This document shows positions 52,064-60,847 of a stretch of DNA of 64,000 nucleotides, piece by piece; position 1 is the first letter of the stretch, and each line of letters begins with the position of its first letter. Source of the stretch: Deltaproteobacteria bacterium. Lineage in GTDB: Bacteria; Desulfobacterota; Syntrophia; Syntrophales; UBA2185. The notes beneath the pieces were generated by a model. The model was not told the DNA's origin. It was given only the letters and a program-made list of their open reading frames with translations, and did not search any database. The translations under genes and the position numbers were made by a program. The stretch lies in assembly GCA_026388545.1 (NCBI GenBank), contig JAPLJS010000114.1, forward strand, positions 1 through 64,000, given 5' to 3'.

Positions 52064-53248
52064 CTAGATTAATCCTAGAAGGTGGAATATCTTCTCAAAG
52101 CGCATCTCCCAGGAATGTTCACGACGTGCGCGTTCGAATCCCTTCCTTCTGATCTCATCAGCCTTTTCACGACTTGATAAAAGAAAACGGATTTTTTCCA
52201 CCAGGTCATCAAAATCTTTATAGGTAAGAATCTCTGAGCCAAGGTTATAAAATCTATCCAGCTCAGGATGGTATTCGGTAAGGTAAAGCCCTCCGCTCAT
52301 GGGTATTTCAAAATCCCTCCCTTTAAGACAATAAGTGTTGCTAAGGCCGATGACACCTCCGAAGCCTAAGCTAATCCGGCTTTTTGAGTACATGCGTACC
52401 ATATCTTCCGTAGACAGGGGGCCATTCGGCCAGCCGTACCCGTAGGCTTCGACGTGAATGCCGCGAGAGGCAAGTCTTTTGATGATCTCAGATCGATTTC
52501 CATAGCACTGGCCTACGAAGGACACATCGATGGTTTTTTCTAGAGTATGTGGTCGATGGATTTCCGGGTTTGCCCCTTCGGGAAAATGGAGGGGAATTGC
52601 TCCCTCCACACAATATTTTTTCACGGCATCCTCCGTGCTCGTCCAGCAAATGTCAAAATAACGGCAGATATCCCTGGAGCCCATGGACCGACTTCGTCTG
52701 ATTTTACCCACAAAATGTTCCTTGTCGTTCAGGGCAAGATTAACCATGGGAACGCCGAAGTTCCTTAATGTACGAACAGTTTCCGGCGTCACCAGCTCCC
52801 CGGAAAGATAGGTAAAGATAACATCGGTTGAGTCCTGTTTCATCCACTGTTCTGCCCGTTTTACGAGGTCTCTATTCATTTCTGCCATTACAGCTTTCTG
52901 CCAATTTTTTTTCTGGTGGTTGAATTGTTCAAACCAGTCGTAGTGCCGGACCTGCCCGAATTTTTCGAGAGATGGTTTCAATGATTCATTTTCCCAGTTG
53001 TAATGGTGATAGATGGCGAGTATTTTCAAACTCCCCTTGTCTTTTCGGCGAATATGGGGGAACCTGTTTTTCATAGCCTGCCGGATGGTTTTCTCGTCGG
53101 GAATGGTAAGATTGTGTGAAGTGAATAGAGTGTAATAGTAGCGTTGTTCCCGCTTCAGCCTGAGATCGTTTTTCCAGATCCGAAATTGTTTCCGGTATTT
53201 TTTCAAAGGGTCATTCATGGCTGCACAGGAGTTAGATAAGCATGTCAT
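52064..53248 (-). CDS. CgeB-like glycosyltransferase, GT1/GT4-like fold
   Basis: The 394-residue protein has an N-terminal basic region, a central WENESLKPSLEKFGQVRHYDW, then DVSFVGQCYGNRSEIIKRL, and a C-terminal GRDFEIPMSGGLYLTEYHPEL, matching the CgeB-type glycosyltransferases that end in a Glyco_trans_1_2 domain. Donor and acceptor are unknown; the neighbours suggest a surface glycan. Its ATG overlaps the upstream stop (ATGA), implying coupling; an internal ATG at 53218 is possible. Confidence 0.78.
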   Translation of the reverse strand: MTCLSNSCAAMNDPLKKYRKQFRIWKNDLRLKREQRYYYTLFTSHNLTIPDEKTIRQAMKNRFPHIRRKDKGSLKILAIYHHYNWENESLKPSLEKFGQVRHYDWFEQFNHQKKNWQKAVMAEMNRDLVKRAEQWMKQDSTDVIFTYLSGELVTPETVRTLRNFGVPMVNLALNDKEHFVGKIRRSRSMGSRDICRYFDICWTSTEDAVKKYCVEGAIPLHFPEGANPEIHRPHTLEKTIDVSFVGQCYGNRSEIIKRLASRGIHVEAYGYGWPNGPLSTEDMVRMYSKSRISLGFGGVIGLSNTYCLKGRDFEIPMSGGLYLTEYHPELDRFYNLGSEILTYKDFDDLVEKIRFLLSSREKADEIRRKGFERARREHSWEMRFEKIFHLLGLI

Positions 53249-54029
53249 CCTGAAGGTTTTGTTTTTCTGGTTGTATAGAGTCTGGCTCCATTTGACTTGT
53301 TCACCCTGTCGTTCATCATGTTCAGGACATGGCCTGCATCGATAGCGGGAATGGAAAACCGCTCTGCTACGTCAACACATATCATGAGGGCTCCTATGCC
53401 TGCTCCAACGATACATATGTCCGTATCCGGCGGGATCTGTTTCAGGATATCTTTTTTTATGAACTCCCAGCGTGTAGCAACGTATTCAGCGGGAGTTTCT
53501 ACGAACGAAAGATCCGGGTGGCTCGAAAACCGGTCAAACCAGGTGCTGCAGGAATCTCTGTTGAATTCTGAGTTAAGGATACAGACTTTTTTGTGATCAA
53601 CGAGGCGGATGAAATCCTCGGAGGTCAGGTAGGCATAGACCACGTAGAAGGGTGTATAATTATCTGCAGTCAGTTCGATTTCGTTATGAAAGAGAAGTTT
53701 AAGAAATGTGGAGGCTGATGACTCCTCTTTTGAGCTGAGGAAAAGCTTAAACACCCCCCTTTTTTTACGAGTACTATTTCCCGGGAAAATCAGGGGTGCA
53801 AGCGTTCCCGATGCAGCCATCTTTTTAAGTGCCGTAATGTGTGAGGGCATTGCTTTTTTAATAGCATCAACGGTTTCCGCCTGCCGGTAAGACAGATTTC
53901 CTCATCTGCCATTTGAGGAGTGTTCATTTTCAGAACCGGCGTGTTGTCGATCTCCTTCAGCACTAACTTTTCAAAACGGAACTGTCCGCTCTGAATCAAA
54001 TTGTTAACGTAGTCCGTCTTTGCCGCCAT
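53245..54029 (-). pseudogene. Frameshifted GT-D-fold glycosyltransferase-like gene
   Basis: Two minus-strand frames share this locus. The first begins at ATG 54029 (MAAKTDYVNNLIQSGQF...MADEEICLTGR); the second, -1 relative to the first, runs from about 53885 to the stop at 53245 and contains DICIVGAGIGALMICVDVAERFSIPAIDAGHV, similar to the C-terminal half of GT-D glycosyltransferases. The join most natural in protein terms is near CTTACCGGCAGGCGG (about 53880-53893), where LTGR continues as QAETVDAIKKAMPSH. The gene is therefore broken, or the assembly has an indel, or the ribosome shifts frame. The usual GT-D DGE motif is not seen in the N-terminal part, so the family call is tentative. Confidence 0.55.
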
Positions 54030-54070
54030 TGTCTGCTATGCCTTTTTTAAAAATCACTGTTTTTTGTGAG

Positions 54071-54958
54071 TTATTTCTTTTGCTTAATACTATTTTCTAT
54101 TTTGCAGATTTCGTCCTGAATAGCTTGATATTTAATTAATTTTTCTTTCACATTTGCCTTATCTTTACAGAAGGGAATTGTCAGTTTCAGGGCAGCTATT
54201 CTCCACCGTGTCTTAAGTAAATGAGCTCTTTTGATTCGCGCTATGGTTTCGGGAAGATAATGCTTCTGATAAAATAGAAACTCGGCATTTGTTTTCTTTT
54301 TCCATACTTCCGATGACGTTGTCGGGCGCTCACTCTGCCCGCCATAATGAACAACAACGGCTGAATTTATATAACCGATTTCGTACTCTGATTTCCTGAT
54401 TCTCAGACATAGATCCTCATCCTCGCCATAGAGGAAAAAATCCTCATCGAAACCTCTCATATCTTTTATCAACTTTGCGTGTGCTATCATACCGGCGCCG
54501 AGGACACAGGCTATTTGCCCTGGGAGCCCTGAGAGTTCACCTGCCGTGTATTTTTCCCCGGGATATCTGTAGGAAACCGAGTCTTGGTGGCTGCCGTCTG
54601 GATTGATTATTTTTGTCCCGGCGAGTCCGATGTACGGACATGCATCCATGAACGATACCGCTTCTTTAAAGGTTCCCGGCATTACACTCGTATCCGGGTT
54701 GAGGAAAAAGATGTAACGTCCGTTGCACTGTGTAAGTATCTGATTATTGGCGGCTGCGAATCCCCTGTTCTCTGTGTTTTCAATGAGAAGCACAGAGGGG
54801 AAATTGTTCCTTATAAAAGCTGCACTTCCATCCGTAGAGGCATTGTCGACGATAAAAATCTCTTTTTTTATCACGTCATCAGATGCAATAACCGATGCGA
54901 GGCAGGTTCCAATCAGATCGGATGTGTTATAGGACACTATAATAATCGATAGATCCAT
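54071..54958 (-). CDS. Glycosyltransferase family 2 (rhamnosyltransferase-like)
   Basis: A 295-residue cytosolic GT-A enzyme: SIIIVSYNTSDLI, FIVDNASTDGS, ENTENRGFAAANNQ, LNPDTSV (DxD-like) and EDEDLCLRIRKSEYEIGYINSAVVVHYGG, typical of WbbL-like rhamnosyltransferases. Sugar specificity is inferred. It lies 5 nt downstream of the GT4 gene, in one operon. Confidence 0.9.
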   Translation of the reverse strand: MDLSIIIVSYNTSDLIGTCLASVIASDDVIKKEIFIVDNASTDGSAAFIRNNFPSVLLIENTENRGFAAANNQILTQCNGRYIFFLNPDTSVMPGTFKEAVSFMDACPYIGLAGTKIINPDGSHQDSVSYRYPGEKYTAGELSGLPGQIACVLGAGMIAHAKLIKDMRGFDEDFFLYGEDEDLCLRIRKSEYEIGYINSAVVVHYGGQSERPTTSSEVWKKKTNAEFLFYQKHYLPETIARIKRAHLLKTRWRIAALKLTIPFCKDKANVKEKLIKYQAIQDEICKIENSIKQKK

Positions 54959-59471: not shown

Positions 59472-59548
59472 TTCAATTTAGCACGATTTGTATCGTATAA
59501 TTAGTGTACAAAAATGCATTTGACATATGAACAATTTTGGTGTAAAAA
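59472..59548 (+). promoter_or_regulatory. vapBC promoter and operator region
   Basis: A TATAAT (59496-59501) lies 18 nt from a TTCAAT (-35-like, 59472-59477). It is bracketed by the inverted repeat TTTGTA (59487-59492) / TACAAA (59507-59512), and GTGCT/AGCAC lies just upstream (59468-59484), as expected for VapB-repressed promoters. A second candidate is TTGACA (59520-59525) with TAAAAA (59543-59548), 17 nt apart. Confidence 0.5.
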
Positions 59549-59649
59549 CCTATCAAGAGAACTTTGAAGAGTTGCATTTCAAGCCATTGCGAGAAGCTGA
59601 CCCCGGCTGGGAATTTACCAAATCTCTTATTCCAAAAAGGTGCTTTTTT

Positions 59650-59847
59650 ATGAGATCCACTGTCACCATTGAAAAAGATATTCTTGATGAACTTCTCAGA
59701 GAAACAAAAGCCAGGAGCAAGGCGTCTGCTGTGAAGATAGCTATCAGCGGATACCTGAAACGAAAAAAAATAGAGAGGATCAGGTCTATGAGGGGCAAAT
59801 TGGATTTTGATCTGACGGCTGATGAAATAAGGCACTATGAACGGTAG
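59650..59847 (+). CDS. vapB: VapB-type antitoxin (type II TA, DUF2191-like)
   Basis: A 65-residue protein MRSTVTIEKDILDELLRET with a ribbon-helix-helix-like N-terminus and a basic helix (VKIAISGYLKRKKIERIR), ending in a toxin-binding tail LDFDLTADEIRHYER. It binds its own promoter and neutralises VapC, by family knowledge. The ATG at 59650 follows AAGG; the frame is open back to 59527 but that part has no family likeness. Its end overlaps vapC by 11 nt. Confidence 0.75.
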   Translation: MRSTVTIEKDILDELLRETKARSKASAVKIAISGYLKRKKIERIRSMRGKLDFDLTADEIRHYER

Positions 59848-60241
59848 AAAAATCCTGGTCGATACTTCCATCTGGATTGATTATTTCAAAAATAAATCAT
59901 CCGGTATTGCCGATAAAGTGGACGAAATGCTTGCCGGGGACGAAGTGTATGTGCCGAAAATCGTCATTGCTGAATTGATCCAGGGGGCTAAATCAGAACG
60001 GGAAGTTGCGGTAATAGAAGAATTTATCGATGCCTTCCATATTGTTGATCAAGGAGCAGATACCTGGATCAAAGCAGGTAAGCTGTCTTTCAGTTTGAAA
60101 AAGAAAGGCAAGAACATCAATTTGTCTGACTGTTATATTGCTGTCATAGCCGAGGAACATGGTTGCCACATTTTTACGCTGGATGGGCACTTCGAAGAGA
60201 TTCAGAAATTTTTTGACATTCATTTAATGATGAGTTCGTAA
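59837..60241 (+). CDS. vapC: VapC-type PIN domain toxin
   Basis: A PIN-domain RNase that cleaves tRNA or rRNA when freed from VapB; the specific target is unknown. The four acidic residues are D9 (ILVDTSIWIDYF), E46 (IAELIQG), D98 (NLSDCYIA) and D116 (TLDGHF). The length of 134 residues is normal and no lesion is seen. The start ATG overlaps the antitoxin end. Confidence 0.9.
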   Translation: MNGRKILVDTSIWIDYFKNKSSGIADKVDEMLAGDEVYVPKIVIAELIQGAKSEREVAVIEEFIDAFHIVDQGADTWIKAGKLSFSLKKKGKNINLSDCYIAVIAEEHGCHIFTLDGHFEEIQKFFDIHLMMSS

Positions 60242-60412
60242 AAAAAGTTATTTATTCAGTCATTTCCGTACTAACGACAAAAAGGGAGAATTTTTATAGT
60301 TCTCAGGAGGGATAGGCCAACGAGGCCCTCTCATGGGTTGTAAATGACCCAAAAAAAAGAAAGGGGGATTCTAAATTACCTCAATCCAAGTGGAGTAAGA
60401 GAGAAAGAGATA

Positions 60413-60847
60413 ATGAAAGACATGATCCCAGCGCTGGTGCATTTTTTTCAGAATGAGGCAGAACGCTTCGGCGTAAGGGCGGCGTTTTTGTACGGTTCAT
60501 TTGCACGTGGATTTCCCCGCCAGGATTCCGACCTTGACGTGGCAATCGTCTTCGATGACGACTCCGATGAGGACATCATTTACCGGCGACTTGTGGACAT
60601 TTCTTTGCTTCTGTCGGAAAGAAGCGGTCGGGATGTCAATGTAATTCCCATCTATTGGGATTTCAGAAAACCTCTACTTTATTACAATGCCATCGTATTG
60701 GGCATTCCTGTTTTCATTAAAAATATCGATGACTTGAAATACTTTAAACTGGAAGCTCTGCTTCAAATGGAAGATTTCGCAATCTTTGGCCTGGAATGGC
60801 AGTCTAACATGGCCAGGCATAATCTGGAGGTTATCCGTCATGCCTGA
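60413..60847 (+). CDS. mntA: MntA-type nucleotidyltransferase antitoxin
   Basis: MNT proteins neutralise HEPN toxins (HepT) by adding AMP to them. The motif GSFARG...DSDLDVAIVF gives GSF at 28-30 and the catalytic D40 and D42. The remaining sequence (SLLLSERSGRDVNVIPIYWDFRKPLLYYNAI) is a minimal-nucleotidyltransferase C-terminus. I choose the ATG at 60413 (144 residues); ATG at 60344 is possible. Its stop overlaps the start of a HepT-like fragment that is broken, so the pair appears inactivated. Confidence 0.82.
   Translation: MKDMIPALVHFFQNEAERFGVRAAFLYGSFARGFPRQDSDLDVAIVFDDDSDEDIIYRRLVDISLLLSERSGRDVNVIPIYWDFRKPLLYYNAIVLGIPVFIKNIDDLKYFKLEALLQMEDFAIFGLEWQSNMARHNLEVIRHA

Follow-up and report, generated by a model that had tools for sequence, protein, structure and literature searches.

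Internal deletion is a familiar origin of bacterial pseudogenes. Programmed −1 frameshifting of the dnaX type operates on the heptamer A-AAA-AAG. Frame transitions in 1106 prokaryotic genomes have been sorted into 146 clusters with recoding-like features versus 4010 pseudogene clusters (PMC3711429). Among glycosyltransferases, the GT-D fold is represented by DUF1792 (Pfam PF08759; PDB 4PFX, 4PHR and 5V4A). Two reports describe DUF1792 as a GT-D-type enzyme transferring glucose (PMC5063993) and its conserved Asp-X-Glu motif as coordinating Mn2+ (PMC6493773).

The locus analysed here lies in a stretch of 64,000 nucleotides from a bacterium of the order Syntrophales, referred to as the window. 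It very probably holds a gene for a glycosyltransferase of the GT-D fold that was broken recently by the loss of about 154 nt; the gene belongs to a cluster for lipopolysaccharide (LPS) or another surface glycan. An earlier note on this DNA had left gene decay, assembly error and programmed frameshifting as explanations for a change of frame within the gene. As judged from the sequence comparison, the frame change appears to be a by-product of the deletion, so that decay is favoured and programmed frameshifting is not. With internal-deletion pseudogenes the locus shares the non-triplet internal deletion, the premature stop, the undecayed remnants and the existence of intact orthologues, and no notable difference from this class was seen.

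Two reading frames and the missing segment

The gene is encoded on the minus strand. Its upstream frame starts with an ATG at 54029 and is closed after 79 codons by a premature TGA (53792–53790), while the downstream frame is open directly after a TGA at 53904 and extends to a stop at 53245. Sequence and ORF coordinates confirmed that the two parts of the protein, as the earlier note had described, lie in different frames, the downstream frame being −1 relative to the upstream frame.

A search of the own genome and its relatives revealed homologues in 12 of 60 genomes. When the intact protein of locus L003, which represents the closest relative whose gene is full-length, served as query against the order, homologues were revealed in 37 of 155 genomes; both counts include the own genome. 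Six loci in the named genome collection belong to three Syntrophaceae, one Syntrophus and two Deltaproteobacteria metagenome-assembled genomes (MAGs). Of the other 36 genomes of the order with a match, 35 have the region of the frame change covered by the match in a single frame, and one (G003) has a contig that starts within the gene. The intact single frame for which the orthologues were to be compared is thus present in all 35 other genomes that cover this region. In three genomes (G131, G030 and G105) one stop was counted inside the match. At these loci and at the flagged locus L046 the gene comprises 307 or 308 residues up to the first stop, which is therefore the gene's own end. Removal of L050 and L017, duplicates of L009 and L046, reduced 34 orthologue loci to 32, in all of which the gene is one frame of some 300 codons. 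Of the 36 other genomes that gave a match, 32 are covered by the alignment (G101, G115 and G153 were left out and G003 is partial), and the two pieces from the window were entered as separate rows alongside the 32 distinct orthologues.

In this alignment the upstream frame matches residues 1–47 (L003 numbering) and the downstream frame matches from residue 99 onwards. The 5′ remnant (54029–53889, minus strand, codons 1–47) ends at the conserved E-I-C-L, and the 3′ remnant (53889–53245, minus strand) extends from residue 99 to the gene end; the two homologous stretches meet at base 53889, which is common to both. Residues 48–98, which correspond to 51 codons and one base or about 154 nt, are absent at the junction 53889/53890, whereas they are kept in 32/32 aligned orthologues, none of which has a gap there. 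As this length is not divisible by three, the deletion would bring the remainder of the gene into the −1 frame, and ribosomes would stop at 53790 after 79 codons. The earlier note had preferred a break near 53885 to one at the heptamer and had taken it for an indel. Its position proved right to within a few bases, but a small indel was rejected because the comparison with orthologues shows 51 missing residues.

The lost piece accounts for 14 of the 51 columns that are invariant among the 32 orthologues, namely P77, R80 to A87 (R-F-A-D-G-E-Y-A), Y89 and C95 to L98. At the remaining invariant positions the window keeps 36 of 37 residues, the sole departure being L122M.

The own genome was searched for a second copy of the gene and for the missing piece. 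The full orthologue matched the two remnants only, and the missing 51 residues used as a query gave no match in the own genome; the same query gave a match in each of the 8 relatives tested as a positive control. PF22882 (GT-D-like) was matched once in the own genome, by the broken gene itself, and PF08759 was not matched. These family tests are weaker than the searches with the full orthologue and the 51 residues, because in the controls PF22882 was found in 0 of 14 named genomes and PF08759 in 3 of 14, with 0 over the cut-off. With intact orthologues in other genomes, a disabling lesion and no intact copy found in its own genome, the gene has the features of a pseudogene. Translocation of the missing piece was rejected on the negative searches of the own genome together with the positive control. 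Phase variation by a repeat tract was also rejected, as no tandem repeat was seen at 53200–54100 and no match to the lost coding sequence turned up at any other place in the genome.

The A-AAA-AAG heptamer

The earlier note had drawn attention to an A-AAA-AAG heptamer in the right phase for a −1 shift, and this heptamer is indeed present at 53859–53853 on the minus strand, in the slip phase for the upstream frame. Programmed −1 frameshifting at this site would yield one full protein, as in dnaX, whose heptamer and phase are alike, and the −1 offset of the two frames agrees with such a mechanism. Nevertheless, we regard this explanation as almost certainly wrong. The heptamer lies 30 nt beyond the deletion junction, and none of the 32 orthologues carries it at the homologous site, so that the conserved slip site proposed as a check was not found; the gene is, moreover, in a single frame in the 35 other genomes covering the junction. 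An in-phase A-AAA-AAG elsewhere in the gene was detected in one of the 32 orthologues (L003). In the window itself, 6 of the 37 non-overlapping ORFs of at least 200 amino acids, taken from a mechanical ORF list, contain the heptamer in phase, and given this number its frequency is no higher than expected by chance.

The sequence behind the heptamer gave no indication of a stimulatory structure either. Folding of the 94 nt that start with its last base gave a z value of +1.17, with 178 of 200 shuffled sequences at least as stable, in a test that covers stem-loops. Furthermore, the lost block and the invariant residues Y99, Q101 and A102 would in a shifted product give way to TGRRKPLMLLKK. Unrelated residues would replace Y99 to I108, and residues 48–98 including D-G-E would still be absent.

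Programmed frameshifting was rejected on these grounds: an X-XXY-YYZ heptamer in phase was found, but it is unconserved, lies beyond the break and is followed by no stable stem-loop, and the conserved block would still be missing from the product. In contrast to dnaX, a deletion that precedes the heptamer accounts for the change of frame, and from sequence, orthologue comparison and folding we judge the heptamer to be a bystander. An in-phase slippery heptamer close to a frame change should hence be treated as weak evidence for frameshifting until orthologues have been aligned.

Fold and putative metal site of the orthologues

The downstream frame matched Pfam family PF22882 with 29.3 bits at a cut-off of 27, and the upstream frame gave no family match above cut-off. 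The GT-D-fold family of this order barely reaches the cut-off, with 26.5 to 30.8 bits in the three orthologues tested; two of them pass (30.8 and 28.4 bits) and L003 (26.5 bits) falls just under it. A comparison of the orthologue with solved structures by sequence gave no match at a meaningful E-value (best values 0.11 and 1.4), which made a comparison of folds necessary.

The intact L003 protein was modelled together with 30 relatives, L004 being left out of this 31-row alignment because of a run of X, and the model reached a mean pLDDT of 89.1. Its best solved match was 4phr with manganese (VIA-align Z 13.5, rmsd 3.8, 216 aligned residues), followed by 4pfx (Z 13.3), 5v4a (12.5) and TagA/TarA enzymes (about 11). 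Foldseek ranked 4phr (E 1.5e-05) and 4pfx (2.1e-05) as its top two matches, with modest TM-scores of 0.44–0.49. From the PF22882 matches and the predicted fold, the intact orthologues are assigned to a GT-D-fold glycosyltransferase family, which bears out the GT-D-like assignment of the earlier note. They have the same overall fold as the DUF1792 enzymes and an invariant D-x-E, although their identity to the solved enzymes is only about 10–13%. The order's family is also characterised by an invariant R-F-A-D-G-E-Y-A and a C-N-G-L block.

D83-G-E85 is invariant in 32/32 orthologues and falls within the piece missing from the window. By its pattern and the predicted fold, it would correspond to the metal motif of the DUF1792 type; a literature search pairing the DxE motif with GT-D found nothing. 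The R-F-A-D-G-E-Y-A block very likely holds the putative metal and sugar-nucleotide site. The window's copy, although its downstream piece passes the PF22882 cut-off, lacks the putative Asp-X-Glu motif of an active GT-D member. In the predicted model of L003, the lost residues form a helix (55–72), a strand (76–81) and a further helix (83–89). Removal of residues 48–98 would presumably abolish enzyme activity, and the glycan of this strain may consequently be changed or left unextended.

One can also imagine that the downstream ORF (ATG at 53850, 201 amino acids) or the short upstream ORF was kept for a new, non-catalytic role, since no additional lesion is seen in the downstream frame and the two remnants are conserved at 36 of their 37 invariant positions. 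We consider this highly improbable. No Shine-Dalgarno-like motif was seen by eye before the ATG at 53850, the truncated fold would, according to the model, lose one strand and two helices, and none of the 35 other genomes covering the junction carries a short form like that of the window. The absence of decay is accounted for equally well by a recent deletion.

Age of the lesion and gene neighbourhood

For each row, departures were counted at the columns in which all other rows are invariant: the window has 1 in 39 and the 31 intact orthologues have 0 to 4 in 38 to 42 (L004 was again left out because of its run of X). The dN/dS values were 0.09 for the window versus L003, 0.16 for the window versus L004 and 0.16 for L003 versus L004, L003 and L004 being the two closest full-length relatives and synonymous sites being near saturation; for L025, two of three pairs gave no estimate of dS. 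The remnants thus show no visible decay, from which it follows that the deletion is either recent or absent from the organism's own DNA. Undecayed remnants are compatible with a recent event, and also with an artefact or with a product that has been kept.

If the deletion is absent from the organism's own DNA, the gene would be intact and the contig would have followed a wrong or minority path lacking the 154 nt or so, through an artefact of assembly or binning. The draft state of the assembly (128 contigs, 3.25% contamination) is compatible with this, as are the undecayed remnants and the single frame in 35 of the 35 other genomes covering the junction. On the other hand, base-calling errors do not typically take the form of a clean 51-codon loss, and the junction is located inside a contig that extends past base 71,000, in a region without tandem repeats. 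The window also carries its 37 long ORFs. An artefact therefore seems unlikely, and we favour the recent deletion, which would then sit in the organism's own DNA.

In L003, a direct repeat GTCTTT is found at both ends of the piece that is missing from the window. Other orthologues share 3–6 nt at those ends, because leucine followed by an aromatic residue is mostly encoded at both and the Leu-Phe and Leu-Tyr codons resemble one another. A deletion running exactly from one repeat to the other in L003 would take out 153 nt, an in-frame loss and one base short of that in the window. Misalignment between short direct repeats is a common route to the loss of a segment; our literature search on short-repeat deletion returned plant examples only. 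As evidence for the mechanism the terminal repeat is weak, and we infer an illegitimate deletion of the short-repeat type as the origin of the lesion.

The broken gene is flanked upstream by a family-2 glycosyltransferase gene (54958–54071, PF00535) and downstream by an intact Glyco_trans_1_2 glycosyltransferase gene (53248–52064, PF13524). The same cluster includes a family-4 glycosyltransferase (56106–54964, PF00534 and PF13439) and a Wzy/O-antigen-ligase-like membrane protein (57415–56144, PF04932), all of them on the minus strand. Among the 32 orthologue loci, 24 have a family-2 relative upstream, 28 have a Glyco_trans_1_2 relative downstream and 21 have both; several of the 32 fetched stretches from which these counts were taken are too short for both neighbours. 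By its gene content the cluster is classified as a surface-polysaccharide cluster. The finding matters little beyond annotation, and it draws attention to the presence, in surface-glycan clusters of the order, of a family of GT-D-fold glycosyltransferases.

It is conceivable, if rather improbable, that the deletion is a real and selected glycan switch. In the nearest full-length relative, a methyltransferase and a working GT-D enzyme are encoded between two glycosyltransferases common to both organisms; the lineage of the window would lack these two enzymes, keep using the remainder of the cluster and carry a shorter or differently capped surface glycan.

Several minor observations were made at this and related loci. 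The ORF listed for the Glyco_trans_1_2 gene from the ATG at 53248 overlaps the stop of the GT-D gene. By its equivalent in L014, the nearest relative with a complete locus, the gene probably starts at the second ATG (53218), and the overlap at 53218–53248 may be merely apparent. In L014 the genes for the family-2 enzyme and the GT-D protein are separated by one for a SAM methyltransferase (1615–2490); the corresponding gap between the two ORFs of the window (54029–54071) is 41 bases long. For this methyltransferase the own genome contains distant matches only, with 30 and 32% identity. In L042, the homologue of the downstream glycosyltransferase was matched in three consecutive pieces (579–1505); it is perhaps a further gene of the cluster that is broken or was mis-sequenced. 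Within the glycan region of the window, two small ORFs with an 11-base overlap (59527–60241) have, by eye, the look of an antitoxin and a PIN-domain toxin (VapBC-like). The stretch 60344–60847 encodes a nucleotidyltransferase-domain protein (PF18765/PF01909) of a type that occurs in MNT-HEPN pairs.
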